A stretch of 64,000 nt of DNA from Lysobacter auxotrophicus (GTDB taxonomy: Bacteria; Pseudomonadota; Gammaproteobacteria; Xanthomonadales; Xanthomonadaceae), in the NCBI RefSeq assembly GCF_027924565.1, contig NZ_AP027041.1:248001-312000 (forward strand). The letters are read 5' to 3'. The notes below the pieces were generated by a model, which was not told the DNA's origin, did no database searches, and saw only the letters and a program-made list of their open reading frames with translations. The position numbers and the translations under genes were made by a program. Shown one piece after another: positions 22,078 to 63,763 of the stretch; within the stretch, counting starts at the first letter, position 1; each line of letters opens with the position of its first letter.

Positions 22078-22161
22078 GAACCACGACTGGGAGCAGCGAC
22101 GGCGGCCAGCGTAAAGTAAGGGCAGGGGAAGCGGCGTCGCCGCAGCAATCACGTGCCATCC
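22078..22161. promoter_or_regulatory. Divergent promoter region between the phosphopantetheinyl transferase and the ligase
   Basis: The 84 bases separating two head-to-head genes must hold both promoters unless a leaderless or distant start is used. Its centre (around 22112-22124, GTAAAGTAAGGGC) is less GC-rich than the flanks. I could not define -35/-10 boxes. Confidence 0.35.
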
Positions 22162-23553
22162 ATGTCCGCGGTCGTCGAAGCCACCAGTCCCGTCCCGTCC
22201 TCGCCCGTGCCGCTGATGCACGGTACCGGCGCGCTCGCCATCGCCTTCGACGAAGGCGGTCACGCGATCGACCGCGCGTTGTTCGCGCGGCACGTGCGCG
22301 CGCTGGCCGCGACGCTGCCCGCCGCGCGATTCGCGCTGAACCTGTGCGAGGACCGCTACCGCTACCTCGTCGCCTTCTGCGCCGCCGCGGTGCGCGGACA
22401 GACCACGCTGATGCCGCCCTCGCGCGCGCCCGGCGTGGTGGAGCAGGTGCAGGCACAGCATCCCGACAGCTATTGCCTGACCGACGTCGACCTCTCGCCC
22501 GCGCCGCCGCATTGCGTGCGCATGCCCGACACCCTGGCCGAACTCGACGGCGAACCGCTGTTCGTCGACGCCCACGCGCGCGTGGCCATCGGCTTCACCT
22601 CCGGCAGCACCGGCCAGCCGCGTGCGTACAGCAAGACGTGGATCAGCTTCCGCACGAGCACCGCGCAGAACCTCGCCGCGCTCGACGGCCTGCTTCGCGA
22701 CGACCTCACCCACGTCATCGCCACCGTGCCGCCGCAGCACATGTACGGCATGGAGATGTCGGTGCTGATGCCGCTGCTGGGGCCGGTCGCGGTGCACGCG
22801 GCGCGGCCGCTGTTCCCCGCCGACGTGGCGCGCGCGCTGCACGATTCCCCGACGCCGCCGTTGCTGGTCACCACGCCGGTGCACCTGCGCGCGCTGGTGG
22901 CTTCCGGACTCGATCTGCCGCCGCTGGCGGGCATCGTCTCGGCGACCGCGCCGATGCCGCCGGAACTGGCCGCGCAGGCCGAAGCGCGCTTCGGCTGCGA
23001 GGTGCGCGAGGTGTTCGGTTCGACCGAAACCTGCGTGTTCGCGCGCCGCCGCACCGCGCGCGATGCCGCGTGGACACCACTGCCCGGCGTGCGCCTGGCG
23101 CCGCAACCCGACGGGACCGCGGTGCACGCGGCGCACCTGGCCGAAGCCATCGTGCTCGCCGATCTGATGGAAGTGCATGCCGACGGCCGCTTCGAACTGC
23201 GCGGCCGCAACGCCGACCTGCTCGACATCGCCGGAAAGCGCGCTTCGCTGGGCGATCTCACGCGCAAGCTGCTCGCGGTACCGGGCGTCGAGGACGGCGT
23301 GATGTTCCAGCTCGATGCCGAAGACGCCATCGGCGTCCGCCGCATCGCCGCGCTCGTGGTCGCCCCGGGCGTGGACGAGCACGACATCCTCCATGCGCTG
23401 CGCCAGCAGCTCGATCCGGTGTTCCTTCCGCGCCCGCTGCGCCGCGTGGAGGCACTCCCGCGCAACGAAACCGGCAAGCTGCCGCGGCACGCGCTGGAGG
23501 CGCTGCTGCATGCGCATGAGCCGCGTGCGGTAGAGGGCGTAGGGGCCGGTTGA
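22162..23553 (+). CDS. AMP-dependent ligase, XanA2-like (3-hydroxybenzoate:ACP ligase candidate)
   Basis: A 463-residue adenylate-forming enzyme. The core motif FTSGSTGQPRAYSK lies near residue 150, followed by VPPQHMYGMEMSVLMPL, FGSTETC and FELRGRNADLLDIAGKR. The C-terminal ALPRNETGKLPR carries the catalytic lysine. It is short for acyl-CoA synthetases and matches the ligases of aryl polyene pathways; in Xanthomonas, XanA2 loads 3-hydroxybenzoate on the carrier protein. The genes for the starter acid and carrier lie at 51-54 kb. The ATG at 22162 is used; a GTG three codons upstream is possible. Confidence 0.85.
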   Translation: MSAVVEATSPVPSSPVPLMHGTGALAIAFDEGGHAIDRALFARHVRALAATLPAARFALNLCEDRYRYLVAFCAAAVRGQTTLMPPSRAPGVVEQVQAQHPDSYCLTDVDLSPAPPHCVRMPDTLAELDGEPLFVDAHARVAIGFTSGSTGQPRAYSKTWISFRTSTAQNLAALDGLLRDDLTHVIATVPPQHMYGMEMSVLMPLLGPVAVHAARPLFPADVARALHDSPTPPLLVTTPVHLRALVASGLDLPPLAGIVSATAPMPPELAAQAEARFGCEVREVFGSTETCVFARRRTARDAAWTPLPGVRLAPQPDGTAVHAAHLAEAIVLADLMEVHADGRFELRGRNADLLDIAGKRASLGDLTRKLLAVPGVEDGVMFQLDAEDAIGVRRIAALVVAPGVDEHDILHALRQQLDPVFLPRPLRRVEALPRNETGKLPRHALEALLHAHEPRAVEGVGAG

Positions 23554-47728: not shown

Positions 47729-47739
47729 GGGGGGGGGGG
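47729..47739. repeat. Homopolymer run of 11 G
   Basis: Eleven consecutive G on the + strand, between the porin start and the metalloprotease terminator, about 155 bases upstream of the porin ATG. It stands out in this sequence and could vary in length. Confidence 0.95.
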
Positions 47740-47767
47740 CGCCGGGCGCCGCGGCGGTGCCATAAAA

Positions 47768-47795
47768 GAAACCGGCGCCTTTCGGCGCCGGTTTC
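47768..47795 (-). terminator. Rho-independent terminator of the metalloprotease gene
   Basis: A 12-bp stem GAAACCGGCGCC / GGCGCCGGTTTC with a four-base loop lies 24 bases past the metalloprotease stop. On the - strand it is followed by TTTT. Confidence 0.88.
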
Positions 47796-47818
47796 CAATC
47801 GCACGACTGCCGGGTCCG

Positions 47819-49911: not shown

Positions 49912-50184
49912 GGGTCACGTCCCGATCTGAAGGTGATATGCCCCCGGCCGGTTCCGCCCTCGCGATGGCCATCGCGAAGAACCGGCAGTGGGGATTGGGT
50001 ATGGGCTTCCCCCTTCAGCCCAGGCCGACTATGCGCCTGCTTCCACGCACGCGACAAGCTTGCGCCGCAACATCGCGCGGCCCACGTATTCAGCGGAAAA
50101 ATGCGGCCATGCATGCGTGCGCGTACGGACCGCGCATGTGAAGGACGTCGTCACGCGCGCCTCGGCGGACGCGCGCGCGGATGC

Positions 50185-51080: not shown

Positions 51081-52088
51081 CTACCCATGCGCCCCATCGA
51101 TCTCAACGCGCAACTCGCGACGGCACACGGCCGCGTGCAACACGACGCGTGGGACTTCCGGCGGCAGGCGTTCGTCGAGCGCACGCGACACGATCTCGAG
51201 TTCGTCGCGGTCGCGTACGTACACCTTCAGCGGCGAATGCGCGCCGAAGCGGGCCGGCAGCGACGGCCATTGCGCGCGGGCGGCGGCAATGAGGCTGTCG
51301 AAGTTCGCCAGCGTTTCGTCCAGCTGCGTCGCCACCGAGTCGGCGTGCTGCGACTCGTGGCCGACGATGGCCGCCGTGCCCGACAGCATCAGCGGCATCG
51401 TGCTGCCGGCCGGCGGCAGCATCGCGCGGGCGAAGCTCGGCGGCTGCGGCCCGTACTGGCGCGGGTAGCGGTAGGCGCTGATCTGGCGCGGATTCTCCAG
51501 CGGCGTGCCCGGCACGCGCGAAGCGAGCCAGTACACCTGCAGGCGTCGCGGCGCGCCTTCCGGATTGACCTGGCCGATGGCGGTAGCCGCGGGCAGCGTG
51601 TGCGGATCGACCTCGCCCAGTCCGCGCGCGCGACCGACGCAGAACTGCCGGTAACGCTCCATGTCGCCTTCGCCGACGGTGATGCCGTCCAGGTAGTTCC
51701 ACACGCGCAGCAGGTGCGGCGTGCCGCGCTGCTGCACGAATTCGATCAGCCGGCGATACAGGCGATCGGCGGTGGCCTCGATGTCCGAACCGCGACGCGT
51801 GGGATCGGCTTCGCCCTCGTCCAGTTCGATCGCGCCGAACAGCAGCGCCCCGTCGTCGGCCCACGCGACGTCGCCGTCGCGACCGCGCTGCACCGGGCCG
51901 CCCGCGCGCCAGACTTCCAGCGGCGCATCGCCGTGCGGCTCCAGCGCGACGCGCAGGTAACGCGGGTCGTCGTGGTGCGGCGCCTTCGTGCCGAACGCGA
52001 TGACCGCCAGCACGTCGGGCTGCACGAGCACAGACTCCGGCGTCGCGTGCACGTATTCCACCGACCAGCGCGGCTCGTGGAAGGGCAT
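51081..52088 (-). CDS. xanB2: Chorismatase making 3-hydroxybenzoate, XanB2-like
   Basis: A 335-residue enzyme of the chorismatase (FkbO/Hyg5/XanB2) family, which removes pyruvate from chorismate. Typical stretches are LLRVWNYLDGITVGEGDMER, YRQFCVGRARGLGEV and PEGAPRRLQVYWLASRVPG. In Xanthomonas, XanB2 gives 3- and 4-hydroxybenzoate, the former as xanthomonadin starter and the latter for ubiquinone. The ATG at 52088 is chosen; a GTG three codons upstream is possible. It lies 14 bases after the FAD oxidoreductase gene on the same strand, as first enzyme of the pigment route. Confidence 0.92.
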   Translation of the reverse strand: MPFHEPRWSVEYVHATPESVLVQPDVLAVIAFGTKAPHHDDPRYLRVALEPHGDAPLEVWRAGGPVQRGRDGDVAWADDGALLFGAIELDEGEADPTRRGSDIEATADRLYRRLIEFVQQRGTPHLLRVWNYLDGITVGEGDMERYRQFCVGRARGLGEVDPHTLPAATAIGQVNPEGAPRRLQVYWLASRVPGTPLENPRQISAYRYPRQYGPQPPSFARAMLPPAGSTMPLMLSGTAAIVGHESQHADSVATQLDETLANFDSLIAAARAQWPSLPARFGAHSPLKVYVRDRDELEIVSRALDERLPPEVPRVVLHAAVCRRELRVEIDGAHG

Positions 52089-52102
52089 GGGATGCACCGC
52101 GC

Positions 52103-53554
52103 TCACTGCGCGCGCTCCGGTCCCGGCTGCAGCGTGTCGGCGGCGCCGTGCAGGCCGACGTCCACGCCGACCTGGCGGCGCCGTTTCAGCCAGCCGCGCA
52201 GCGCGAGCGGCGCCATGCGGATCGCCGTCACGTTGTAGATGAAGCGGAACAGGCGCAGGCGCTTGAGCACTTCGGGGTTGTCGAACACGTCGCCGGCGAG
52301 CATCGAGATCACCGCCTGTTCCACCTGCCATACATTGCGCGGATGGTTGAACAGGTGGCGCATCACCGGCGTGGTGAAGCGGTAGATGAACCACTGGAAG
52401 TGCTTGAGTCCGCGCTTCAGGCGCGTGTCCATCTCGCGTTGCAGTGCGGCTTCGCGCGCGGGATCGCGCAGCGCGCCGTCGACCACCTGCGCGGCCTGCT
52501 CGGCGCTGTTCATGCCCAGGTACACGCCGGAGGAGAACACCGGATCGACGAACGCGTACGCGTCGCCGACCATCACCCAGCCCGGCCCGTGCATGCGCTC
52601 GCAGGTGTACGAGTAGTTGCCGGTGACGTGCACCGGCGCGACGCGCTGGGCGTTGGCCATGCGCTTTTTCACCTGCGGCTCGGACGCCAGCGTCTTCATG
52701 AGGAACGCTTCGTTCTCGCCGCGGCGCTGCTTGAGGTATTCGGGGAAACACACCGCGCCCACGCTCATCACGCCGTCGCGCAACGGAATCAGCCACATCC
52801 AGCCGTGCGCGAAGCGCTGCACGGTGATGTTGCCGGCGTCCTCGCCGTCGCGGCGCTCCACGCCGGTGAAGTGGCTGAAGATCGCCGCCGACTGGTGCAG
52901 CGCGTTCTTCTTCTTGAGCTTGAGCTGGTTGCCGAAGAACGTGTCGCGGCCGCTCGCATCGACGATGTAGCGCGCGCGCACCGTGAACGCGTTGCCCTGC
53001 GCATCGCGTGCATGCGCGATCGACGGCCGGCCGTCGCTGCCGAATTCCACGCGTTCGACCTTGTGCTTCTCGCGCGCGTCCACGCCATTGGCCTGCGCGT
53101 TGCGGAACAGCAACTGGTCGAACTCCTCGCGCTTGACCTGGTAGGCGTAACCGAACGCGGGGTTGAGCGCGCGCTCGAAGCGGAAGGTGTTGTACTGGTC
53201 GGCGCCCTCGTTGTCCGGCGCCATCGGCGTGCCGTCGTCGTTGACGATCGGGAACTCCGCGCCGGGCTTGAAGGTGCCGATGGCCTTCACCTGGTCGAGC
53301 ACGCCCAGGCGTTCGAGGATCGGCAGGTTCATCGGCAGCAGCGATTCGCCGATGTGGAAGCGCGGGTGCGCGTCCTTCTCCAGCAGCAGGACGCTCCAGC
53401 CCTTGCGGGCGAGCATCGTGGCGGCGGTGGTGCCGGCGGGGCCGCCGCCGATCACCAGCACGTCGGCCTGCAATGCTGTCGGGGTGTCGGTGGGCGAGTT
53501 CAGCTCGGCCGGCGAGGCGCTTGCGCGGCCGGGCCCTGGGACGGTGTCGGTCAT
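52103..53554 (-). CDS. FAD-dependent oxidoreductase, flavin-dependent halogenase-like
   Basis: A 483-residue flavoprotein. The FAD site is VLVIGGGPAGTTAATMLARK (GxGxxG at 36-41), with HIGESLLP after it. Two halogenase features are present: a lysine (K96) in FKPGAEF, where variant-B halogenases carry their KRGG lysine, and W252-M-W254-L-I-P257, matching the WxWxIP motif. GDAYAFVDPVFSSGVYLGM is the second FAD motif. Xanthomonadins are known to be brominated, so a halogenase role in the pigment is plausible but not shown. It is divergent from the carrier protein gene by 157 bases. Confidence 0.85.
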   Translation of the reverse strand: MTDTVPGPGRASASPAELNSPTDTPTALQADVLVIGGGPAGTTAATMLARKGWSVLLLEKDAHPRFHIGESLLPMNLPILERLGVLDQVKAIGTFKPGAEFPIVNDDGTPMAPDNEGADQYNTFRFERALNPAFGYAYQVKREEFDQLLFRNAQANGVDAREKHKVERVEFGSDGRPSIAHARDAQGNAFTVRARYIVDASGRDTFFGNQLKLKKKNALHQSAAIFSHFTGVERRDGEDAGNITVQRFAHGWMWLIPLRDGVMSVGAVCFPEYLKQRRGENEAFLMKTLASEPQVKKRMANAQRVAPVHVTGNYSYTCERMHGPGWVMVGDAYAFVDPVFSSGVYLGMNSAEQAAQVVDGALRDPAREAALQREMDTRLKRGLKHFQWFIYRFTTPVMRHLFNHPRNVWQVEQAVISMLAGDVFDNPEVLKRLRLFRFIYNVTAIRMAPLALRGWLKRRRQVGVDVGLHGAADTLQPGPERAQ

Positions 53555-53711
53555 GCGCCAATCATAAGGGAAGGGCCGCGTCCGCCCCGTGGAACGGGCC
53601 GGGCCGGCGGCACGGCGCCGCGGGGCGCCGCCGCCCGGCCCGGACGGTTGCGCGCGACGCGCCGATGCCGGATCGTGGCGTCCCTCGATATGCCTTGTAG
53701 CGGAAATCCCG
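53555..53711. promoter_or_regulatory. Divergent control region of the pigment cluster
   Basis: The 157 bases between the halogenase-like gene (leftward) and the carrier protein gene (rightward) must drive both arms. It is very GC-rich in the centre; an AT-richer segment (GATATGCCTTGTAGCGGAAA) lies just before the carrier start, and CAATCATAAGGGAAGG lies just before the other. No clear sigma-70 boxes. Confidence 0.45.
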
Positions 53712-53981
53712 ATGTCTGAACAAAGTCCCGTCGAACGCGAACTGGCGGAGCTGCTGGTCGAAAGCCTGAACCTCGAGGACGTCGCCCCGGGCGAGATCGA
53801 CCCGGAAAGCCCGCTGTTCGGCGAAGGCCTGGGCCTGGATTCGATCGACGCGCTGGAACTGGCGCTGGCGATCTCCGGCAAGTACGGCTTCCAGCTGCGT
53901 TCGGACAGCGACGAGAACCGTCGCATCTTCGCCTCGCTGCGCGCGCTGGCCGCGCACATCGAACAGCGCCGCGCGGCGTGA
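53712..53981 (+). CDS. xanC: Acyl carrier protein of the aryl polyene cluster, XanC-like
   Basis: An 89-residue acyl carrier protein. The phosphopantetheine serine is S44 in GLGLDSIDALELALA, preceded by DPESPLFGEG. In Xanthomonas the corresponding XanC carries the 3-hydroxybenzoate starter and growing polyene. It begins the rightward operon of the cluster; the next gene overlaps its stop by four bases. ATG start. It needs a phosphopantetheinyl transferase, and one lies at 21.5 kb. Confidence 0.92.
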   Translation: MSEQSPVERELAELLVESLNLEDVAPGEIDPESPLFGEGLGLDSIDALELALAISGKYGFQLRSDSDENRRIFASLRALAAHIEQRRAA

Positions 53982-54706
53982 GCGCCGCCTGGGCGCGCGA
54001 CGGCATGGCATCGGCCGTGGTTCGCGCCATTCCCGCCATCGCGCTGGCCGTCGCGTACCCGCTGCTGGCGCACTGGGCCACGCACGACGGCGGCGGCGTG
54101 CCGGCCGCCATCGCGATGGCCGACCTGGTCGCGCTGTGCCTGGTCGCCCCGCTGATGCACGGCCAGGCGTGGGCCTGGGCCGTGCTCGTCGCGTGCGGCG
54201 CCGCGCTGGCGTGGCTCGCGCAGACGCCGTACGCGCAGATGCTGCTGCTGGCTCCGCCGATGCTGTTCGTGGGCTTCGTGGCGTGGATGTTCTGGCGCAG
54301 CCTGCGAGCGCCGCGCGAGGCGCTGATCACGCGGATCGTCGCGGCGATGGAAGGCTGCGAGCCGGCCACGCTGCCGGCGCCGCTGTACCGCTATTCCCGC
54401 CAGCTGACTGCCGCGTGGGCCTATGTCCTGGCCGCGCTGGCGATCGCCAACGGCGTGCTGGCGTTGATCGCCGTGCCCGACGGCGTGCTCGTGCGCCTGG
54501 GGCATCCCTCGCCGGTTTCCATCGGCCAGGAGGCGTGGTCGCTGTTCGCCAACCTGCTCAACTACGGCATCGTCGGCGGCTTCTTCGTCGGCGAATACAT
54601 GCTGCGGCGCTGGCTGTTCCCGCATCGCCCGTACCGGCATTTCTTCGATTTCCTGCGGCAGATGGCGGCGCTGGGGCCGCGGTTCTGGCGTGGATTGTTC
54701 GACTAG
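53978..54706 (+). CDS. COG4648-type inner membrane protein of the pigment cluster
   Basis: A 242-residue polytopic protein with about six hydrophobic stretches (about 14-31, 42-58, 64-78, 82-98, 140-160 and 190-210). A charged loop, PREALITRIVAAMEGCE, lies between the fourth and fifth. These proteins are constant members of aryl polyene clusters, following the carrier protein; their role is undetermined. The GTG start overlaps the carrier stop by four bases. Ends 41 bases before the first dehydratase. Confidence 0.82.
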   Translation: MSAAWARDGMASAVVRAIPAIALAVAYPLLAHWATHDGGGVPAAIAMADLVALCLVAPLMHGQAWAWAVLVACGAALAWLAQTPYAQMLLLAPPMLFVGFVAWMFWRSLRAPREALITRIVAAMEGCEPATLPAPLYRYSRQLTAAWAYVLAALAIANGVLALIAVPDGVLVRLGHPSPVSIGQEAWSLFANLLNYGIVGGFFVGEYMLRRWLFPHRPYRHFFDFLRQMAALGPRFWRGLFD

Positions 54707-54747
54707 CCCGGTATCCTGAGCGCACCTTCGCGCAGCCGCCGCCACGC

Positions 54748-55044
54748 ATGGACTTCACCATTTCCGCCGACCATCCCAGCCTGCCCGGGCATTTCCCCGG
54801 TCGGCCGCTGGTGCCCGGCGTGGTCGTGCTGGAGCGCGTGGTCGAGGCGATCGAAGCCGCGCACGGCCCGCTGCGCGCATTGCGCCTGCCGCAGGTGAAG
54901 TTCCTGCAGCCGCTGCTGCCGGGCGAGAGCGCGCGCATCGAACTCGACGGCGCTGCGCCGCGCTGGCGCTTTCGCGTGCTGCGCGAGGCGACGCTGATCG
55001 CCAGCGGCGAGATCCTCGCGCACGACGCCGGGGCCGCGGCATGA
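54748..55044 (+). CDS. 3-hydroxyacyl-ACP dehydratase, small FabZ-like hotdog protein
   Basis: A 98-residue hotdog-fold protein with the FabZ-type signature HPSLPGHFPGRPLVPGVVVLE (His near residue 15) and PQVKFLQPLLPGE. It is shorter than FabZ (about 150) and lacks some of the C-terminal strands. It would remove water from 3-hydroxyacyl carriers to build the conjugated polyene. The ATG at 54748 is used; the stop overlaps the acyltransferase start by four bases. Confidence 0.85.
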   Translation: MDFTISADHPSLPGHFPGRPLVPGVVVLERVVEAIEAAHGPLRALRLPQVKFLQPLLPGESARIELDGAAPRWRFRVLREATLIASGEILAHDAGAAA

Positions 55045-56033
55045 GTTCGCACTGGAAACAGCGCCCCGAAGGCGGCGGCTACGTCGCGCTGTGGATCATC
55101 CGCAGCATCGCGCGTTATGGCGGCCGCCCGGTCGCGCGCCTGTGCCTGTACCCGATCACGCTGTATTTCCTGTTCGTGCGCGGACCCGAACGCCGCGCCT
55201 CGCGCGCCTACCTGTCCCGTGTGCTCGATCGCACGCCCACGCTGTGGGACGTCGCGCGCCATATCCACACCTTCGCCGCCACGATCCTCGATCGCGTGTT
55301 CCTGCTCAGCGGGCAGCTGTCGCGTTTCGATATCGCCACCGTCGGCCTGCCGGCGCTGGCCGCACGCGTGGACCGCGGCGAAGGCGTGCTGATCTTCGGT
55401 TCCCACCACGGCAGCTTCGACGCGCTGCGCGTGCTTTCGCTCACCCGTCCCGCGCTGCGCGTGCGCATCGTGCTCGACGTCGCGCACAACCAGGCCATCA
55501 CGCGCCTGCTCGACGCGCTCAACCCGCAGCTCGCGCGCGACGTCATCGACGCCGGGCAGGACGGCGTGTCGATCGTGCTGGCGATCCAGGAAGCGCTCGC
55601 GCGCGGCGAGCTCGTCGCGCTGCTGGTCGATCGCGCCGAAGCCGGCGATGCCACGGTGCGCGTGCCGTTCCTCGGGCGCGATGCGGCGCTGCCGTCGGGC
55701 CCGTGGTCGCTCGCCGCCACGCTGAAGGTGCCGATCATGCTGGCGTTCGGGCTGTATCGCGGCAATAACCGCTACGAGCTGGTGTTCGAGGAATTCAGCG
55801 ACGGGCTCGACATCCCGCGCCGGCAGCGCGGCGAACGGATCGCCGCACTCGTGCGCGAGTACGCCGCGCGCCTGCAGCACCACGTGCGCCGCGCGCCCTA
55901 CAACTGGTTCAACTTCTACGATTTCTGGCAGGGCGACGATGCAGCGGACGACTCCTCACTCACGCACCTGGGCGAGGCGACTGGCGCCGGCGCTGCTGCT
56001 GTCCAGCGCGGCGATCTGCGCCGCGCCGGCTGA
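55041..56033 (+). CDS. LpxL/HtrB-like lysophospholipid acyltransferase
   Basis: A 330-residue acyltransferase of the lauroyl/myristoyl type. An N-terminal membrane helix (about 28-50) with LCLYPITLYFLFVRGPERRA is followed by the acyl-transfer motif GSHHGSFDAL (HxxxxD) and later VDRAEAGDATVRVPFLGR and PSGPWSLAATLKVPI. In aryl polyene clusters it is thought to join the polyene to a lipid or glycerol for anchoring. Its last 95 bases are shared with the LolA-like gene in another frame, an unusually long overlap. Confidence 0.88.
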   Translation: MSSHWKQRPEGGGYVALWIIRSIARYGGRPVARLCLYPITLYFLFVRGPERRASRAYLSRVLDRTPTLWDVARHIHTFAATILDRVFLLSGQLSRFDIATVGLPALAARVDRGEGVLIFGSHHGSFDALRVLSLTRPALRVRIVLDVAHNQAITRLLDALNPQLARDVIDAGQDGVSIVLAIQEALARGELVALLVDRAEAGDATVRVPFLGRDAALPSGPWSLAATLKVPIMLAFGLYRGNNRYELVFEEFSDGLDIPRRQRGERIAALVREYAARLQHHVRRAPYNWFNFYDFWQGDDAADDSSLTHLGEATGAGAAAVQRGDLRRAG

Positions 56034-56613
56034 CGCGCCGGTCGAGGCCGACTGGATCCTGGCGAAGATCGCGCGCCCCGCGCCGGCGCGCACGCCCTTC
56101 GTCGAAGTGCGCGGTTCGAAACTGCTGAAGACGCCGCTGCGCCTCACCGGCGAGTACCGCCGTCCCGACGCCGACACGCTCGTGCGCGAAGTGCGCTCGC
56201 CGTATGCCGAAACCACGACGCTGCACGCCGGCGAGGCGACCATCGAACGCGCCGGGCAATCGCCGCGCACGTTCTCGCTCTCGCGCGTGCCGGAACTGGC
56301 CGGCCTGCAGAACAGCTTCGGCGCGCTGCTCGGTGGCGACCACGCCTCGCTGCAGGCGCATTACCGCCTGCAGGCCGACGGCACGCGCCAGCGCTGGACG
56401 CTGACGATGACGCCGAAGGACGCCGCGCTCGCGTCGAAACTGCACGCGATCCAGCTGTTCGGCCGCGGCGCGGAACTGCGCTGCATCCAGACGCGTCCGG
56501 CCGGCAAGGGCGACGTGCAGCGCACGCTGCTCGCCGGCGCGGCGCAGGACGCGGCCAGGGCTACCGACGCCGCCGCGCTCGCCGCCCTGTGCGAAGGCGC
56601 GCCCGCACGATGA
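55939..56613 (+). CDS. LolA-like outer membrane lipoprotein carrier
   Basis: A 224-residue exported protein with a signal peptide about 1-34 (RLAPALLLSSAAICAAPADA). The LolA-like core has FVEVRGSKLLKTPLRLTGEYRR and strands SPYAETTTLHAGEATIERAG. Such proteins in aryl polyene clusters are thought to carry the lipid-linked pigment across the periplasm. The ATG at 55939 lies inside the acyltransferase gene (overlap 95 bases); its signal peptide supports this start. The stop overlaps the exporter ATG. Confidence 0.85.
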   Translation: MQRTTPHSRTWARRLAPALLLSSAAICAAPADAPVEADWILAKIARPAPARTPFVEVRGSKLLKTPLRLTGEYRRPDADTLVREVRSPYAETTTLHAGEATIERAGQSPRTFSLSRVPELAGLQNSFGALLGGDHASLQAHYRLQADGTRQRWTLTMTPKDAALASKLHAIQLFGRGAELRCIQTRPAGKGDVQRTLLAGAAQDAARATDAAALAALCEGAPAR

Positions 56614-58967
56614 GCGGACGACCGATGAGCGCGACGCGCCGGCTCGCGCTGGCGCTGCTGTGGCTGGCGCTGCTCGCGCTGCTCGCGTTGTTCGTCGCGC
56701 CGCGCGTGCAGCTCAGCGGGGACCTGCGCAAGTTCATGCCGGCGCCGCAGACGCCGGCGCAGAAGCTGCTCATCGACGAACTCGGCGAAGGTCCGGGCTC
56801 GCGCCTGCTGCTGCTTTCGCTGTCGGGCGAGGCGCCACAGACGCTCGCGGCGCAATCGCAGGCGCTGCGCGAGCGCCTGCTCGCCACGCGCGTCGGCGTG
56901 GACGTGCCGTTCAAGCTCGTGGCGAACGGCGCCGACCTCGGGCTCGACGCGATCCCGCCGCGCCTGCGTCCGTACCGCTACCTGCTGTCGCCGACGCTCG
57001 ACACGCAGCGCTTCGATGCCGCATTCCTGCGCGGCGAGCTCGACGCGCGCGTGCAGGATCTCGGTTCGCCCGCGGCGGCGATGATCGAACCGCTGCTGCC
57101 GTCCGACCCGACGCTGGAAACGCTGAAGCTCGCGCAGGCGTGGCAACCGGCGAATGCGCCGCAACGGCTGCACGGCGTGTGGTTCGATCGTGCAGGACGC
57201 CAAGCGCTGCTTGCGATCGAAACGCATGCGGCCGGCTTCGATCCGGAAGGCCAGCAGATCGCCGTCGACGCGATCCACGCCGCGTTCGATGCGGTGCGTG
57301 GGAACTCGAAAACCGCGCTGACATTGACAGGTCCCGGCGCGTTCTCCGTCGAGATCGGCGGACGCACCGCGCGCGAGGCGAGCCTGATCGGCACCATCGA
57401 TTCGCTGGTGTTCGTGCTGCTGCTGTGGATCGCGTACCGCAGCTGGAAGGCGCCGCTGCTGGGCGGCCTGCCCCTGGCGAGTGCGGGCCTCGCGGGCCTT
57501 GGCGCCGTGGCGCTCGCGTTCGATGGCGTGCACGGCATCACCGTCGCGTTCGGCTTCACGCTGATCGGCGTGGTGCAGGACTATCCGATCCATCTGTTTA
57601 GTCACCAACGCGCCGGCGTGTCGCCGTGGGCGAGTGCGCGCGCGCTGTGGCCGACGCTGGGCACGGGCGTCGCCTCGACGTGCATCGCCTACGCGACCTT
57701 CCTCGTTTCCGGCGTCGATGGCCTGCAGCAGCTCGCGGTGTTCACGGTCGTCGGCCTGGCGACGGCGGCGCTCGCGACGCGTTTCCTGCTGCCGGCGCTG
57801 ATCGATCCGTCGCCGCACGATGCCGCCGATTCGCGCTGGCTCGCGCGTTACTGGAACGCGCTGGCGCGCTGGCCGCGCATGAACGCGCTTTCCGCGGGCA
57901 TTGTCGCCGCGATCGCTGCCCTCGTCGTGGCGTTCGCGCCGGGCACGTTCTGGCAGAACGACCTCGCGCGACTTACGCCGGTGCCGTCGGCCGCGCTGGC
58001 GCAGGACGCGCAATTGCGTGCCGAACTCGGCGCGCCGGACGTGCGTTACGTGATCGCGCTGCAGTCGCGCGACGCCGAACAGGCGTTGCAGTCGTCCGAA
58101 CGCATGCTCGGTGCGCTCGAGGACCTGCGCGCGAAGGGCGTCATCGGCGGATTCGATCTCGCCGCGCGCTACCTGCCGAGTGCGGCGACGCAACGCGCGC
58201 GCCAGGAAAAGCTGCCGACCGACGCCGAATTGCGCACCGCATTGGCCGATGCGATGGCCGGCGGCGCATTCAACGACGACGCCTTCGACGACTTCGTGCG
58301 CGACATCGCCACGGCGCGCGCCGCACCGCCGATCACGACGGCCGATCTGGCCGGAACGCCGCTGGCGGCGAGCACCGAAGGCCTGCTGCTGCAGCGCGAA
58401 GGCCACGCCATCGCGCTCGTCGCGCTGTCCGGATTGCGCGATCCCGCCGCCGTCGCGCGCGTGGCGCACGCCAACGGCGCGCAGCTGCTCGACCTGAAGC
58501 AGGCGTCCGAATCGCTCGTCGCGCAGTATCGCGAACGCGTGCTGTGGGCACTGGCGCTCGCCGCGGTGCTGCTCGCCGCGGCCGTGTGGTTCGCGCTGCG
58601 CTCGCCGCGTCGCGTGCTGCGCGTGCTCGCGCCGATGGCGTTGACGACACTGCTGATCCTCGCCGTGCTGCGCGCGTTCGGCGTCGAACTGAACCTCTTC
58701 CACCTGGTGTCGCTGATCCTCGCGGCGGGGCTGGGCCTGGATTACGCGCTGTTCTTCGACCACGCCGGCGACGATCGCGCCGAACAGCTGCGCACGCTGC
58801 ACGCGGTGATCGTGTGCAGCCTGACCACGTTGCTGGTGTTCGCGTTGCTCGCGCTGTCGAGCATTCCGGTGCTGCGCGCCATCGGCGGCACGGTCGCGCT
58901 CGGCGTGGCGTTCAACTTCGTGCTGGCGCTGCTGATCGTGCGCGAACCCGTGAGGGAAGCGGCGTGA
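56610..58967 (+). CDS. MMPL family exporter of the pigment cluster
   Basis: A 785-residue RND/MMPL-type transporter with about 12 helices in two halves. The first helix is at about 10-30; helices 2-6 follow a large periplasmic loop (to about 250), with ASLIGTIDSLVFVLLLWIAYR and GVVQDYPIHLFSHQ. The second half repeats the layout, with LGLDYALFFDHAGDDRAEQ in the equivalent place, the aspartate of proton relay. ATG at 56610 overlaps the LolA stop by four bases; a GTG seven codons upstream is possible. It probably delivers the lipid-linked polyene outwards. Confidence 0.88.
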   Translation: MSGRPMSATRRLALALLWLALLALLALFVAPRVQLSGDLRKFMPAPQTPAQKLLIDELGEGPGSRLLLLSLSGEAPQTLAAQSQALRERLLATRVGVDVPFKLVANGADLGLDAIPPRLRPYRYLLSPTLDTQRFDAAFLRGELDARVQDLGSPAAAMIEPLLPSDPTLETLKLAQAWQPANAPQRLHGVWFDRAGRQALLAIETHAAGFDPEGQQIAVDAIHAAFDAVRGNSKTALTLTGPGAFSVEIGGRTAREASLIGTIDSLVFVLLLWIAYRSWKAPLLGGLPLASAGLAGLGAVALAFDGVHGITVAFGFTLIGVVQDYPIHLFSHQRAGVSPWASARALWPTLGTGVASTCIAYATFLVSGVDGLQQLAVFTVVGLATAALATRFLLPALIDPSPHDAADSRWLARYWNALARWPRMNALSAGIVAAIAALVVAFAPGTFWQNDLARLTPVPSAALAQDAQLRAELGAPDVRYVIALQSRDAEQALQSSERMLGALEDLRAKGVIGGFDLAARYLPSAATQRARQEKLPTDAELRTALADAMAGGAFNDDAFDDFVRDIATARAAPPITTADLAGTPLAASTEGLLLQREGHAIALVALSGLRDPAAVARVAHANGAQLLDLKQASESLVAQYRERVLWALALAAVLLAAAVWFALRSPRRVLRVLAPMALTTLLILAVLRAFGVELNLFHLVSLILAAGLGLDYALFFDHAGDDRAEQLRTLHAVIVCSLTTLLVFALLALSSIPVLRAIGGTVALGVAFNFVLALLIVREPVREAA

Positions 58968-59419
58968 CGGCGGCGACCATCGCGCGCGAGGAGGTCCTCA
59001 CGCTCGTGCCGCATGGCGGCGCGATGTGCCTGTGGGATGAAGTGGTCGAGTTCGACGCGCAGTCGATCCGGCTGCGCGCGTTCAACCATCGCGACGTCGC
59101 GCATCCGCTGCGACATCGCGACCGGCTGCACGCCGTGCACCTGGGCGAATACGGCGCGCAAGCGATGGCCGTGCACGGCGGGCTGCTCGCGCGTGCGGCG
59201 GGCGAGGGCGTGCGGCCCGGCATGCTCGTCGCGCTGCGCGACCTTGTGCTGCAGGTCGATCGCATCGACGATCTCCCCGGCGCCATCGACGTGCACGCGC
59301 AATGCCTGATGGCCGACGCGTCCGGCAGCCAGTACCGTTTCCTCATCACGCACGACGGCGCGACGCTTGCGAGCGGCCGCGCCGCGGTGCTGCATTCGCT
59401 TTCCGGAGAGTCCGCATGA
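58964..59419 (+). CDS. 3-hydroxyacyl-ACP dehydratase of the pigment cluster (second)
   Basis: A 151-residue hotdog protein with the motif LVPHGGAMCLWDEVVEFD and HLGEYGAQAMAVHGGLLA, typical of the second dehydratase of aryl polyene clusters (ApeP/XanI-like). Catalytic residues are probably the His of PHGGAM and the Glu of GEYGAQ. GTG start overlapping the exporter stop by four bases (TGA), and stop overlapping the reductase ATG. Confidence 0.87.
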   Translation: MTAATIAREEVLTLVPHGGAMCLWDEVVEFDAQSIRLRAFNHRDVAHPLRHRDRLHAVHLGEYGAQAMAVHGGLLARAAGEGVRPGMLVALRDLVLQVDRIDDLPGAIDVHAQCLMADASGSQYRFLITHDGATLASGRAAVLHSLSGESA

Positions 59420-60159
59420 GCGCACGCAAACCCACCGGCCCGCGTCGCGCGCTGGTCACCGGCGGCAGCGGCGACATCGGCGGCGCGATCTGCCGCCGCC
59501 TGGCCGCCGACGGCTGCGAGGTGATCGTGCACGCCAACCGCAACGTCGAGCGCGCGCAGGCGGTGGTCGACGCCATTGGCGCGGCAGGCGGATCGGCGCA
59601 GGCGGTCGCATTCGACGTGGCCGATGCGCAGGCGTCGCAGGCTGCGATCGCGACGCTGCTCGACGCTGGCCCGATCCAGATCGTCGTCAACAACGCCGGC
59701 GTGCACGACGACGGCCCGATGGCCGGCATGAGCGAGGCGAAGTGGAAGCGCGTGGTCGACGTGTCCCTTCACGGTTTCTTCCATGTCACCCAGCCGCTGC
59801 TGCTGCCGATGGCGCGCACGCGCTGGGGCCGCGTGGTCAGCGTGTCGTCGGTGGCGGCGGTGCTGGGCAACCGGGGCCAGGCGAACTACGCCGCGGCCAA
59901 GGCGGCGCTGCACGGCGCGACCAAGTCGCTGGCGCGCGAGATGGGCAGCCGCGGCATCACCTGCAACGTGGTGGCGCCAGGCGTGATCGAGGGCCGCATG
60001 GCCGACGCGGCCTTCCCGGCGGAGGCCATCAAACAGCTGGTCCCCGCCGGCCGCCCCGGCCAGCCGGACGAGGTCGCCGCGCTGATCGGGTTCCTGTGCT
60101 CGGACGGCGCCGCCTACATCAACGGGCAGGTGATCGGCATCGACGGCGGGATGACCTGA
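59416..60159 (+). CDS. 3-oxoacyl-ACP reductase, FabG-type, of the pigment cluster
   Basis: A 247-residue classical SDR. NADPH site TGGSGDIGGAICRRLA, NNAGVHDDGPM, catalytic Ser/Tyr/Lys as VSSVAAVLGNRGQANYAAAKAAL and a C-terminus GQVIGIDGGM. It would reduce the 3-oxoacyl carrier intermediate in each polyene cycle. The ATG at 59416 overlaps the upstream stop by four bases. The next gene follows after 77 bases. Confidence 0.92.
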   Translation: MSARKPTGPRRALVTGGSGDIGGAICRRLAADGCEVIVHANRNVERAQAVVDAIGAAGGSAQAVAFDVADAQASQAAIATLLDAGPIQIVVNNAGVHDDGPMAGMSEAKWKRVVDVSLHGFFHVTQPLLLPMARTRWGRVVSVSSVAAVLGNRGQANYAAAKAALHGATKSLAREMGSRGITCNVVAPGVIEGRMADAAFPAEAIKQLVPAGRPGQPDEVAALIGFLCSDGAAYINGQVIGIDGGMT

Positions 60160-60236
60160 ACGGACGGCGGCGTCGTTCGCTTCCGCACGACCGCCCGTGT
60201 CGTAGGATCGCCGCAACCCAACACGGAGGCGCCGCC

Positions 60237-60740
60237 ATGCGCCGCATCGCTTCGATCCTTGCCGCACTCGCACTGGCCGCGCTGGCCGGCTGTTCGTCCA
60301 CCTCGCAGCTGGTCACCGGCACGCCGCGCACGCCGATCGACCCGTCGCAGGTGCGCGTGTACTACACGCCGCCGCCGGGCGGTTTCGAGGAAATCGCGCG
60401 CCTGGAGACGGCCAGCGGCAGCTTCACCTACGGCGAGCAGAACAAGCTGAACGACGTGATCGCCAAGCTGCGCGCCGAGGCCGCGAAGCTGGGCGCCAAC
60501 GGCGTGCTGTTCATGGGCACGCAGGACACGGGCGGCGGCAGCAGCGTGGGCGTCGGCGTGGGCGGCGGCAGCTACGGCGGCTACCACGGCGGCAATTTCA
60601 GCTCCGGCGGCATCGGCGTGAACATCTCGCCGACCAAGAAGTTCGCGCAGGCCGTGGCCATCTACGTCGCCAACCCGCCGCCTGCCACCGCGCCGCAGAC
60701 GCCTCCGCCGGCCGCGCCGCCGGCGCAACCGGTGAAGTGA
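60237..60740 (+). CDS. Glycine-rich lipoprotein at the end of the pigment operon
   Basis: A 167-residue lipoprotein: signal with lipobox LAGC (cysteine near residue 19). The mature part has VRVYYTPPPGGFEEIARLET and ANGVLFMGTQDTGGGSS, followed by a Gly-rich VGVGVGGGSYGGYHGGN stretch and a final proline-rich tail of about 25 residues. It resembles small lipoproteins of Xanthomonas pigment loci, but its role is unknown. Its own RBS (GGAGG) eight bases upstream suggests partly separate translation. Confidence 0.82.
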   Translation: MRRIASILAALALAALAGCSSTSQLVTGTPRTPIDPSQVRVYYTPPPGGFEEIARLETASGSFTYGEQNKLNDVIAKLRAEAAKLGANGVLFMGTQDTGGGSSVGVGVGGGSYGGYHGGNFSSGGIGVNISPTKKFAQAVAIYVANPPPATAPQTPPPAAPPAQPVK

Positions 60741-60753
60741 GTCGAGCGTGACC

Positions 60754-60785
60754 TCATCCCCGCGAAAGCGGGGATGATGCTTTTG
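60754..60785. terminator. Terminator between the two convergent arms of the cluster
   Basis: A 10-bp stem TCATCCCCGC - GAAA - GCGGGGATGA is followed by TGCTTTTGG on the + strand. The core matches the interspersed CCCCGCGAAGGCGGGG family, so a repeat appears to serve as terminator here. Confidence 0.7.
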
Positions 60786-60797
60786 GGGGCGACGCGG

Positions 60798-61622
60798 CTA
60801 CGACGAGCGCGTCTGCACCACGCCCATCGGCGGCGGTGCGAACTCGCCCGTCGGGTCGTCGATCACGACCGGGTTCTCGCGGATCCGGCGATACATGTCC
60901 GGCACGCCGCCGCGCCGGAGCACGCCGAACACCACGTGCGAGGTGATACGCGAGAAATCGCGCAGCGGCTTGAAATGGCTCGGACGGAACTGCTCGTCGC
61001 TGTGCACGCATTTGTAGCGCGACTCGATCGGCACCGACACGCAGCGCGTGCCCAGCTGCTGCGCGGCGGAAATCAGGATCTGCGCCTCGAACACGAAGTC
61101 CTCGCCGGGCACGTCGGTAAGCGCGGCCACCGCTGCCGGATACAGGCGCTGCCCGCTCTGGCTGTCGGCGAGCTGGTACCCCGTGCCCCACGCGATGCCC
61201 CAGTCGGCGAACTCGTTGGCGAGGCGTCGATAGATCGGCTGCTGCGAACGGCGACGCAGGCGCGCGCCGATCACGATGTAACCCGGATGCCGGTTCGCCG
61301 CGGCGATCAGCCGCGGGATGTCGCTGGGCAGATGCTGCCCATCGCCGTCCATGCTGACGATGGCGCGCGCGCCCATGCGCAGCGAGTGCATGAAGCCGTC
61401 GCGCAGGCTCGCGCCCTTGCCCATGCGCGTTTCGTGGCGGATCACGGTCACCGGCAGGTCGGCGATGCGCTCGGCGGTGCCGTCGTCGGAACCGTCGTCG
61501 ATCACCAGCACGCGCGGGCATTCGGCGAGCGCACCGATGACCACGTCGCGGATGCGCAGCGCTTCGTTCAGTGCGGGAATCACGACGATGACGTCGTCGC
61601 GGCTCAGGGTCGGATGGGTCAC
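60798..61622 (-). CDS. GT2 family glycosyltransferase of the pigment cluster
   Basis: A 274-residue glycosyltransferase. N-terminus VIVVIPALNEALRIRDVV, then VLVIDDGSDDGTAE, the DXD-type SMDGDGQHLPSDIPR and a later GEDFVFEAQILISAAQQLG. Length and motifs match dolichyl-phosphate-like GT2 enzymes. It may glycosylate the pigment or its lipid. The ATG overlaps the chain-length-factor stop by four bases, so it lies in one operon with it and the ketosynthase. Confidence 0.87.
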   Translation of the reverse strand: MTHPTLSRDDVIVVIPALNEALRIRDVVIGALAECPRVLVIDDGSDDGTAERIADLPVTVIRHETRMGKGASLRDGFMHSLRMGARAIVSMDGDGQHLPSDIPRLIAAANRHPGYIVIGARLRRRSQQPIYRRLANEFADWGIAWGTGYQLADSQSGQRLYPAAVAALTDVPGEDFVFEAQILISAAQQLGTRCVSVPIESRYKCVHSDEQFRPSHFKPLRDFSRITSHVVFGVLRRGGVPDMYRRIRENPVVIDDPTGEFAPPPMGVVQTRSS

Positions 61623-62395
61623 GGGGTCACCTCCACCAGCAGGTCGTGCGCAGCGCCGGCGGGCAACGCCGCCGTCCCTTCGCCGCGCGCGAGTACATCG
61701 AACAGGGGCAGCATCGGCGCCATCGCGTTGGCCGACGCGAAACGCGCCAGCGGACCGGTGGCGGGCGATTGCGTCGAGGCCGGCACCAGGCGCGCCTGCA
61801 GGCGTGGGCCGGCGCCGTCGCGCGACAGCACCAGCGCGCCGCCGAGCAGGCCTTCGCTCGGCGCCATCTTCGCCAACGGGCCCGCGGACTGGCCGTCGTA
61901 GGCCACCAGCAGCACGGCGTCGGCGTCATGCAGTTGCGTCAGCGCTTCGATCAACCCCTGGGCGAAGCTCGCCGTGTACGCGCTGACCGCGTTCGCCGGC
62001 TGCATCGCGCCGGTACCGATCGTCCAGTAACCGGCGGCGGCGTTGTGCACGGAGTTATGGAAACGCGTCGGCGACAACGCGCGCGGATCGGCCGCCAGCG
62101 TCGTGCACATGTAATCGGTGATCGCCAGTTCGCCGTGCGTGGAGGCGAACACCGACGGCAGCGATGCGGGGTCGCGCGACGCGGCTTCGCATGCGGCCAT
62201 GGCGACTTCGAGCGCGATGGCGACGGTTTCCGGCGCGCGGCGGCGTTCGTTCGCGGGCAGCAGTTGCGGCGATGGACGCGATGGCGCATCCGGCGGCTGC
62301 GTGCCGCTGGCCGCGAATTCGCGCGCCGCCGTCCACGAGGGCAGTCCCCGCGTCCAGAAGCCGATGCCTTCGATCCTTGCTTCCAGACGGCTCAT
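61619..62395 (-). CDS. Chain-length-factor-like beta-ketoacyl synthase N-terminal protein
   Basis: A 258-residue protein of the beta-ketoacyl synthase fold but short, without the catalytic cysteine: in place of the ACSSS-type nucleophile elbow it reads NSVHNAAAGYWTIGT. The N-terminus is VEGIGFWTRGL-like (EARIEGIGFWTRGLPS), and PSVFASTHGELAITDY is a thiolase-fold stretch. In aryl polyene systems such a partner (ApeC/XanA-like) pairs with the ketosynthase. It overlaps both neighbours by four bases. Confidence 0.85.
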   Translation of the reverse strand: MSRLEARIEGIGFWTRGLPSWTAAREFAASGTQPPDAPSRPSPQLLPANERRRAPETVAIALEVAMAACEAASRDPASLPSVFASTHGELAITDYMCTTLAADPRALSPTRFHNSVHNAAAGYWTIGTGAMQPANAVSAYTASFAQGLIEALTQLHDADAVLLVAYDGQSAGPLAKMAPSEGLLGGALVLSRDGAGPRLQARLVPASTQSPATGPLARFASANAMAPMLPLFDVLARGEGTAALPAGAAHDLLVEVTP

Positions 62396-63579
62396 GCGCG
62401 ACCGAACACCAGCGAGCAGTTGTTGCCGCCGAAACCGAAGGAATTGTTCATCGCGTAGCGGATCTGCGCGCGTTGCGACGCGAAGCGGATCTGCGGACCG
62501 CACGCGGGATCGGGCGTGTCGCTGCCGAGCGTGCCCGGCAGTTCGCCGCGTTCCAGCGCGATCAGCGCGATCGTCGATTCGACGATGCCCGCCGCGCCGA
62601 GCGTGTGCCCCGTCCAGCCCTTGGTCGAACTGGCGTGCAACGCGTCGGGGAAGACGGAGGCGACGGCGGCGGCTTCGACGGAATCGTTCGCCGGCGTGGC
62701 CGTGCCGTGCAGGTTGAGGTAACCGACCTCGTCCGCGTCGATGCCGGCGCGCGCGAGCGCATCGCGCATCGCCAGCCGTGCACCGAGGCCTTCCGGATGC
62801 GGCGAGGACATGTGGTGCGCGTCGCTGGATTCGCCATAGCCGCGCAACTGCAGGCCGGTGTCGCCCTCGCTCGCGCGTTCGAGCAGCGCGAAGCCGCCGG
62901 CCTCGCCGAGCGACAACCCGTTGCGCGTCGCATCGAACGGACGGCAGGGTTCGCTCGCCACCAGTTGCAGCGAATTGAAGCCGAACAGCACGCTGCCGCA
63001 GAGCGTGTCGACGCCGCCGACCAGCGCGGCGTCGGCCAGGCCGGCGTCGATCAGGCGCGCGGCCTGCGCGAACACCTTCGCGCTGGACGAGCACGCGGTC
63101 GCCACGGTGATGCACGGTCCACGCAGTCCGGTGGCCTGTTGCACGAACTCGCCCAGCGAATGCGGCGTGTGCACGTGCGGACGCGCGTAGGGCTCGGCGA
63201 ACTCGCCGTCCTCCAGCGCGGTGTACGCCGCCTCGGTGCTGCCGATGCTGGACGTCGACGTGCCGACGATCACCGCGATGCGGTCGGCGCCGTGTCGCGC
63301 GACGGCGGCGTCGATCGCATCGCGCATGCCGTCCTGTTCCAGCGCGAGCCAGGCCAGGCGGTTGTTGCGCGAATCCCACGGCTCCAGCGCCGCGGGCAGG
63401 GCGATGGATTCGAGCCCGTCGACGCGGCCGATCCAGCAGTCCAGGCGCCCGGCATCGGCATCGCCGAAATCGTTCCGGCGCAGGCCGCTGCGGCCTTCCC
63501 GCAATGCCGTCGCCAGCGCATCCCGCCCGGGGCCGACGGCGCTGGTCGCGGTGCAGGCACGGATCGCGAGGGGCGACAT
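62392..63579 (-). CDS. Beta-ketoacyl-ACP synthase of the aryl polyene pathway
   Basis: A 395-residue condensing enzyme. The triad is C163 in VATACSSSAKVF, H291 in LHGTATPAND and H325 in WTGHTLGAAG, all intact. It extends the aryl starter by two carbons from malonyl carrier per cycle. The ATG at 63579 matches the family start SPLAIRACTATSAVG; an upstream GTG at 63615 has a better RBS (GGGAA) and would add 12 residues. It overlaps the chain-length-factor gene by four bases. Confidence 0.92.
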   Translation of the reverse strand: MSPLAIRACTATSAVGPGRDALATALREGRSGLRRNDFGDADAGRLDCWIGRVDGLESIALPAALEPWDSRNNRLAWLALEQDGMRDAIDAAVARHGADRIAVIVGTSTSSIGSTEAAYTALEDGEFAEPYARPHVHTPHSLGEFVQQATGLRGPCITVATACSSSAKVFAQAARLIDAGLADAALVGGVDTLCGSVLFGFNSLQLVASEPCRPFDATRNGLSLGEAGGFALLERASEGDTGLQLRGYGESSDAHHMSSPHPEGLGARLAMRDALARAGIDADEVGYLNLHGTATPANDSVEAAAVASVFPDALHASSTKGWTGHTLGAAGIVESTIALIALERGELPGTLGSDTPDPACGPQIRFASQRAQIRYAMNNSFGFGGNNCSLVFGRA

Positions 63580-63763
63580 GCGGCGGACGGTGGACGGCGG
63601 AAGCGTGGACGGCACGAAAGATTCCCGGGCGAAGGTCGCGAAAGTATAGCCAGCGGGGTGGTGACGGCCTCCGTGCGGGACCGTGGCGCCCCGCCGTATT
63701 CACGGGGCGTGGAGGGGATGTCGGATTGAGGTGAAGCGCCGATGTGCCCGGCGCTTCGCGCTT

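Follow-up and report, generated by a model that had tools for sequence, protein, structure and literature searches.

A xanthomonadin-type aryl polyene gene cluster of Lysobacter auxotrophicus and a candidate starter-loading ligase gene 28 kb away

The 64,000-nt stretch of Lysobacter auxotrophicus DNA analysed here (the window) harbored what is, judged by its genes, an ordinary xanthomonadin-type aryl polyene (yellow-pigment) cluster typical of its bacterial family. The starter-loading gene was most likely encoded 28 kb from this cluster, within the same window, and very probably the pathway is split over two places of one Lysobacter chromosome. The argument is built on observed gene identities, gene order, co-occurrence and co-absence.

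Gene content of the cluster

The initial annotation listed 14 genes, 12 of which were recovered by profile or structure-sequence matches (Table 1): chorismatase, halogenase-family protein, ACP, ApeI-like dehydratase, LpxL-type acyltransferase, LolA_3 carrier, MMPL exporter, ApeP-like dehydratase, FabG-type ketoreductase, GT2, chain-length factor (CLF) and ketosynthase (KS). Support for the lipoprotein was weak (LPAM_1 E 0.0019, DUF4156 E 0.0017, both below cut-off), its small gene being present in many relatives and absent from some. The COG4648 label of the membrane protein was not reproduced (0 families in Pfam and NCBIfam) and reflects position only: in Table 1 of PMC8253772 the COG4648 protein of E. 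coli, ApeG, stands between the ACP ApeF and ApeH.

Table 1. Features of the window considered here, ordered by position
Feature	Position	Strand	Evidence or remark
Sfp-type 4'-phosphopantetheinyl transferase (PPTase)	21457..22119, start not fixed	-	PF01648; divergent neighbour of ligase
Displaced AMP-ligase, proposed XCC4015/ArcT/ApeH role	22153..23553	+	PF00501; co-occurrence
XanB2-type chorismatase	51081..52106	-	PF21168 E 2.7e-39; TIGR04444 (under cut-off); PDB FkbO 4bps E 5.9e-44
Flavin-dependent halogenase-family protein	52103..53554	-	PF04820; PDB halogenases 8zop, 5buk, 3e1t
Acyl carrier protein (ACP), DSI site	53712..53981	+	PF00550; NF006617 above cut-off
Membrane protein, ApeG/COG4648 position	53978..54706	+	conserved place
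ApeI-like 3-hydroxyacyl-ACP dehydratase	54748..55044	+	PF07977; PDB FabZ 4zw0 E 1.9e-7, 6qsr_A E 0.0015
LpxL-type acyltransferase	55041..56033	+	PF03279 E 2.5e-9
LolA-like carrier	55939..56613	+	PF19574 E 3.4e-90
MMPL/RND-type exporter	56610..58967	+	PF03176
ApeP-like dehydratase	58964..59419	+	profile of 12 family members matches 6qsr_B E 5.2e-10
FabG-type ketoreductase	59416..60159	+	PF13561, PF00106
Small probable lipoprotein (OH11 ORF14 position)	60237..60740	+	weak LPAM_1
Terminator-like hairpin	60754..60777	.	between converging blocks
Family 2 glycosyltransferase (GT2)	60798..61622	-	PF00535
Half-length CLF (ApeC/OH11 ORF16 type)	61619..62395	-	PF13723; PDB 6qsp_B, 7f28_A (sole PDB matches)
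KS (ApeO/OH11 ORF17 type)	62392..63579	-	NF006618 517 bits, above cut-off; PDB 7f28_B, 6qsp_A best

The chain-building genes comprised a KS with a half-length CLF, an ACP, a ketoreductase and paired ApeI/ApeP dehydratases. The KS displayed residues C163, H291 and H325, and the CLF displayed two glutamines, Q146 (95 of 116 rows) and Q154 (108 of 116), either of which possibly matches the essential Q166 of strain OH11. PDB entries 7f28 and 6qsp, matched by both proteins, are taken here to be aryl polyene KS-CLF complexes, such as have been studied in A. baumannii. The ApeP assignment was made through the family only, PF22817 (ApeP-like) being matched in five of 12 family members and not in the window protein. 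An anchoring and export set (acyltransferase, GT2, LolA, MMPL) was also present. Methyltransferase, thioesterase and ring hydroxylase genes were not found among the cluster genes, nor are they among those of OH11 (PMC3691225).

Extent, strands and order

The left cluster end at 51081 was correct as first drawn, while the right end at 63615 corresponds to a GTG start of the KS gene, whose ATG 63579 form already spans positions 2-393/394 of NF006618. The two convergent arms described initially became three strand blocks (-/+/-), since the chorismatase and flavoprotein genes lie on the minus strand and diverge from the ACP gene. Four-base overlaps did link most genes: they were found in eight of the 11 same-strand neighbour pairs, as counted from coordinates with GTG 52106 as the chorismatase start. 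From this GTG, the overlap with the end of the halogenase gene is 4 bp; ATG 52088 is the alternative. Exceptions were the membrane protein/first dehydratase pair (+41 bp), the acyltransferase/LolA pair (95 bp overlap) and the FabG/lipoprotein pair (+77 bp).

An unusual order or strand split, raised as a possibility by the initial annotation, was rejected. The relative loci with a complete set of the 12 core genes all shared the gene order and strands of the window (42/42 and 63/63, in two overlapping sets restricted to such loci). The window order also equalled the ORF5-ORF17 list of OH11, by comparison of ORF lists, with one halogenase-family gene added. A hairpin scan of the region gave two sites against a shuffle mean of 6.4, and only the placement of the hairpin between the converging blocks is suggestive; a promoter scan found no promoter.

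A displaced candidate for the starter ligase

The ordered route from chorismate to an exported, lipid-linked polyene proposed at the outset agreed by homology with the cluster type, the chorismatase-derived starter, type II elongation and the lipid-transfer/export set; missing from its list was an AMP-ligase. That the genome lacks a matching ligase was rejected, a candidate being found at 22153-23553, between the PPTase and exonuclease III genes. Its product displayed the motifs TSGSTGQP (at 149) and NETGK (at 438); its C-terminal Pfam domain fell marginally under the cut-off, and none of the 25 NCBIfam matches listed out of 55 was above cut-off. Among 71 pigment-type ligase rows, the A3 pattern was displayed by 66 and the A10 pattern by 58; the 13 rows outside the A10 pattern keep Gly-Lys at that place. 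As defined here, these patterns are too strict for some relatives.

Of the 71 genomes carrying a cluster of this type, 70 encoded an orthologue of this ligase, and the 48 genomes lacking such a cluster encoded none; these counts treat related genomes as independent. The exonuclease, PPTase and gidB genes occurred together without the ligase in all five fetched relatives lacking the cluster (G005, G062, G067, G016 and G027); this comparison covered the best 12 loci of 28 genomes, and 19 cluster-lacking family members were searched. It is very unlikely, on these observations, that the distant ligase serves another pathway while an unrelated acyl-CoA ligase, or no ligase at all, handles the starter. 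Such a reading could draw on the distance of 28 kb, on the adjoining PPTase, which is not cluster-specific (it holds the same site in the five relatives without cluster), and on the seven AMP-binding places in the genome. In addition, no ligase was described for OH11, whose ORF10 initially matched acyl-CoA synthetases but was later classed as LolA and could be deleted without loss of the pigment (PMC3691225). Against it stand the co-occurrence, the sites empty of ligase, and the nesting of PPTase-site ligases within those encoded inside or beside pigment clusters. No report of a displaced ligase in Lysobacter was found among the titles and abstract openings searched, which cover few subscription papers.

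Xanthomonas-titled loci with both chorismatase and ACP genes numbered 18; in 17 of them an orthologous ligase (60-72 % identical) adjoined the chorismatase, and the contig of the remaining one, L200, stops 0.5 kb beyond the chorismatase gene. The AMP-ligase XCC4015, whose number follows that of xanB2 (XCC4014), is reported essential for pigment (PMC3949708). The Xanthomonas arrangement suggests that the ligase gene changed home. A general drift apart by insertion was not supported: genomes G017, G068 and G040 displayed the exonuclease-PPTase-gidB block, without ligase, 43-46 kb from a chorismatase-adjacent ligase and in opposite relative orientation. The spacer genes of the window were not found between block and ligase there (E 1e-15), except for an SDR match inside the cluster. 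This layout fits movement of the ligase better than insertion drift. The direction of movement is read from a single FastTree tree, in which the clade of PPTase-site ligases has support 0.866 and nearby nodes have 0.627 and 0.52. It is a rather unlikely, speculative extension that in Lysobacter and Luteimonas the ligase, as the committing enzyme for the pigment, moved out of the cluster to a divergent pair with the PPTase beside gidB-parAB, placing priming and loading under control separate from that of the polyene synthase. A pigment-related role of the 27.5 kb spacer itself was not supported by the 11 proteins examined; ten chosen ones matched beta-eliminating lyase, RDD, SpoIIM, DUF4350, DUF58, shikimate dehydrogenase, SDR and ABC transport families, and one more matched porin.

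Proposed pathway

All chemical and transport steps are proposed by homology to experimentally studied clusters. The chorismatase would convert chorismate to 3-hydroxybenzoate, and probably also to 4-hydroxybenzoate; the displaced ligase would adenylate 3-hydroxybenzoate and load it onto the ACP, whose prosthetic arm would be attached by a PPTase, possibly the Sfp-type enzyme adjoining the ligase. The KS/CLF pair would add malonyl units to this starter, with FabG and the ApeI/ApeP dehydratases reducing and dehydrating in every round, and the lack of enoyl reduction would yield a conjugated polyene. Transfer of the polyene to a lipid anchor would fall to the LpxL-type acyltransferase and GT2, the MMPL exporter, LolA and the small lipoprotein would carry the product to the outer membrane, and the flavoprotein may halogenate the ring.

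The chorismatase is of the FkbO/Hyg5 type (TIGR04444 score 216.7 bits, under the cut-off of 325), and alignment cannot accurately predict the product type of such enzymes (PMC3949708). The same enzyme classes would serve for an aryl polyene with the E. coli-type starter, 4-hydroxybenzoate, and XanB2-type chorismatases also yield this compound (PMC3949708). Such a product is nevertheless judged very unlikely: the cluster encodes its own chorismatase, a single ACP and a half-length CLF, its order matches that of OH11, and 3-hydroxybenzoate restores the OH11 pigment (PMC3691225). A distant polyene-type set was also clearly separate, the G005 exporter and ligase being 29 % and 31 % identical to those of the window.

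Comparison with known systems

L. enzymogenes OH11 (ORF5-ORF17) displayed the same gene classes and order, including a KS with half-length CLF; the ABC transporter genes nearby are for phosphate and sulfate in OH11 (PMC3691225) and probably for sulfate in the window. In the window a gene of the halogenase family separates chorismatase from ACP; none is reported for OH11 (PMC3691225), and the locus of L. enzymogenes ATCC 29487 (L149) has just 377 bp between these two genes. Xanthomonas (XCC4014-XCC4015 region) shares the core order, strands, chorismatase and orthologous ligase, and 16 of 18 loci displayed a halogenase-family gene as in the window; there the ligase adjoins the chorismatase and GT2 often follows a second flavoprotein, whereas in the window the ligase is distant and the second flavoprotein absent. 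The arcuflavin genes arcA-X of Azoarcus BH72 include the chorismatase ArcB, halogenase-annotated ArcA, ligase ArcT, LolA, exporter, KS and the KS-N-domain protein ArcJ, and likewise lie in two unlinked places, but as two large clusters with dialkylresorcinol genes (PMC3949708). As listed in PMC8253772, apeA-R of E. coli CFT073 have window counterparts, by predicted function, of ApeC, E, G, H, I, L, M, O, P and Q; ApeH is placed there between ApeG and ApeI, and extra ketosynthases, a second ACP, a methyltransferase and a thioesterase are included, with 4-hydroxybenzoate coming from UbiC.

Halogenase-family flavoprotein

The flavoprotein displayed the halogenase motif set (GxGxxG, K96, GWMWLIP). 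WxWxIP was conserved in 96/96 orthologues and lysine at position 96 in 97/97 rows including the window; from alignment with the PDB halogenases, K96 is presumably the catalytic halogenase lysine. The chances are a little short of even that the protein is a working halogenase and that, in contrast to L. enzymogenes, the strain makes a xanthomonadin carrying bromine or chlorine, which would add to the main explanation and not replace it. This conservation and the halogenases as nearest solved structures argue for it, as does OH11, which has no flavoprotein gene and whose pigment displayed no bromine isotope pattern (PMC3691225). Conversely, Xanthomonas populi CFBP1817 (L200) carries an orthologue that is stop-free across residues 20-476, and a 1982 paper names in its title a non-brominated aryl-heptaene as the pigment of X. 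populi. Of 140 loci, 53 (Xanthomonas loci included) encode a second WxWxIP flavoprotein, possibly the brominating enzyme; it has no counterpart in the present genome, where the flavoprotein search gave one match only.

Implications

An annotation restricted to the cluster would report no starter-activating gene; the displaced ligase provides a strong candidate, at a defined place, for this missing gene of the Lysobacter pigment pathway. Among 28 Lysobacter-titled loci showing both chorismatase and ACP genes, 23 had a halogenase-family gene, which suggests that L. enzymogenes, the Lysobacter studied for its pigment, belongs to the minority without it; halogenation is thereby testable by species comparison.

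UbiC (PF04345) had no match in the genome, and the chorismatase may therefore also supply the ubiquinone pathway; complementarity of UbiC and chorismatase was weak, UbiC being found in only three of 14 relatives without cluster and chorismatase. An enzyme of the pigment cluster may be needed for respiration. If the clustered chorismatase is the sole source of 4-hydroxybenzoate, a premise for which UbiC alone was searched among the routes to this compound, the separate ligase control speculated on above would set the shares of chorismate-derived hydroxybenzoate going to pigment and to ubiquinone.

Organization of the pigment gene cluster

The source genome is a single contig of 4.16 Mb, of which the window covers bases 248001-312000. 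Fourteen genes of a xanthomonadin-type aryl polyene cluster were arranged in three strand blocks and not in two arms, as the initial annotation had it. The gene content it described was retained, 12 of the 14 genes being named by Pfam, NCBIfam and PDB sequence searches, and the four-base overlaps it had seen between most genes were found at eight out of 11 same-strand junctions. The COG4648 protein and the small lipoprotein gave no clear match in profile searches. The converging blocks were separated by a 57-bp gap containing a terminator-like hairpin.

Features of the pigment pathway and its surroundings (window positions)
Feature	Position	Strand	Content
Ligase	22153-23553	+	candidate AMP-ligase for the 3-hydroxybenzoate starter
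Shikimate dehydrogenase	37426-38301		between ligase and cluster
Left flank	46112-49972		phosphate-selective porin, putative secreted protein
Cluster	51081-63579		14 genes
Block 1		-	chorismatase, flavoprotein
Block 2		+	ACP, membrane protein, dehydratase, acyltransferase, LolA, MMPL, dehydratase, FabG, small lipoprotein
Block 3		-	GT2, CLF, KS
Flavoprotein	52103-53554	-	halogenase family
Exporter	56610-58967	+	MMPL

In the PDB, KS and CLF were best matched by the paired chains of entries 7f28 and 6qsp, which we take to be aryl polyene KS-CLF complexes. The first dehydratase weakly matched chain A of entry 6qsr and the second, through its family profile, chain B of the same entry, so that the two look by sequence like an ApeI/ApeP pair; PF22817 (ApeP-like) was matched in five out of 12 family members of the second. 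Among named contigs (own or very near records possibly excluded), the exporter was closest to that of Lysobacter soli KCTC 22011 (93 % protein identity), on which basis the source is assigned to Lysobacter. Left of the chorismatase, a putative secreted protein with a PA-like stretch was read by eye.

Conservation of gene order

Of 119 genomes, own genome included, 71 encoded a closely matching exporter (at least 333 bits). Gene order was compared in 60 regions from these 71 genomes (own genome among the 11 omitted) and in a second set made up of named loci, the best 80 among the 177 relatives that were detected; since the sets overlap (e.g. G003 with L142), they are not independent. All 12 core genes, halogenase and lipoprotein excluded, were present in 42 regions and 63 loci, respectively, and every one of these displayed the order and strands of the window. 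Partial loci agreed in 13 of 18 and 16 of 17 cases, the remainder being five loci that belong to other families within the taxonomic order and one fragment. Pigment genes ORF5-ORF17 of Lysobacter enzymogenes OH11 are described in the same order (PMC3691225). The suspicion that the order might depart from characterised clusters was thus not borne out: the cluster itself is an ordinary xanthomonadin-type one in standard order and probably functional. Deletion of KS, ACP, KR or CLF each removed the OH11 pigment, deletion of the LolA-like gene left it intact, and a chorismatase mutant regained it with 3-hydroxybenzoate (PMC3691225).

Halogenase-family genes

The flavoprotein displayed every halogenase motif tested, and WxWxIP was found in 96 of 96 orthologues. 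Orthologues occurred in 29/42 and 51/63 complete clusters of the two overlapping sets and, among loci showing chorismatase and ACP, in 23 of 28 titled Lysobacter and 16 of 18 titled Xanthomonas. Another WxWxIP flavoprotein, which shares roughly 23-28 % identity with the first, was encountered in 53 out of 140 loci (e.g. L108, L204). It occurred in Xanthomonas and in some of the Lysobacter clusters, usually placed between FabG and GT2, but a search of the own genome did not find it. In Xanthomonas populi CFBP1817 (L200, halogenase-family gene at 1552-2883) both genes were stop-free over the aligned stretches, yet its pigment is called non-brominated in the title of a paper, which argues against a simple prediction of bromination.

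Chorismatase outside the pigment cluster

A chorismatase homologue was found in 69 of the 71 genomes with the cluster and in 34 of the 48 without. In three of the latter (G062, G016 and G005) the cluster was gone while the chorismatase still stood beside genes neighbouring that of the window. UbiC (PF04345) exceeded the cut-off in four of the 119 genomes, and the profile had no match in the own genome. XanB2 reportedly gives both 3- and 4-hydroxybenzoate (PMC3949708), and this distribution would agree with such a double role; against a neat rule, UbiC occurred in only three of 14 genomes lacking both cluster and chorismatase.

G005, a same-genus relative, had no xanthomonadin-type cluster but a distant polyene-type set (C8:460000-497500; L253, L254) about 20 kb from the kept chorismatase (KS 46 %, exporter 29 %, ligase about 30 % identical), as if one pigment cluster had been replaced by another.

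The candidate starter ligase and its location

In published work, the starter is activated by an AMP-ligase: XCC4015 is reported as essential, and adenylation of 3-hydroxybenzoate by ArcT was observed in vitro (PMC3949708). According to PMC8253772, ApeH loads the ACP directly and is listed in E. coli between ApeG and ApeI, a place which in the window is only a 41-bp gap. A genome scan placed AMP-binding proteins at seven sites, one being the candidate ligase.

Of the 71 exporter genomes, 70 also encoded a closely matching ligase (at least 231 bits); the exception, G041, is fragmented, with a truncated ligase match at a contig end. None of the 48 genomes without a close exporter had one (best match 102 bits). 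Both genes shared a contig in 59 genomes, the ligase lying upstream on the same strand in 49 (47 within 61 kb, two at 143 and 312 kb) and otherwise in ten.

Among the 30 best-match ligase loci, own genome included, 28 displayed the ligase divergent from a PPTase that adjoins gidB, with exonuclease III visible on the other side of the ligase in 25. The ligase adjoined the chorismatase in Xanthomonas, Pseudoxanthomonas and Stenotrophomonas, lay within the operon in six loci from other families (L136-L141) and followed KS in three (L119, L128, L130); it was seen in none of 28 Lysobacter-titled loci (about 22 kb or less, showing chorismatase and ACP). In a FastTree phylogeny of 76 sequences, some genomes being duplicated, PPTase-site ligases and that of Luteimonas lumbrici (L172) nested among cluster-site ligases (support 0.866, nearby nodes weak). 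Ligase, exonuclease and cluster were adjacent in L172, and fetched loci of five cluster-lacking relatives, one of the same genus, displayed exonuclease, PPTase and gidB together without the ligase.

The shikimate dehydrogenase encoded between ligase and cluster acts on the route to chorismate; its position may be due to chance.

Taken together, co-occurrence, ligase locations, tree and ligase-free sites make it very probable that the ligase is part of the pigment pathway and likely that its present place is derived; we infer that it moved out of the cluster. A xanthomonadin-type pathway split over two places is strongly favoured, with confidence held slightly lower because the ligase was likened to XCC4015 only through Xanthomonas loci, and the starter ligase has most likely been displaced by 28 kb.
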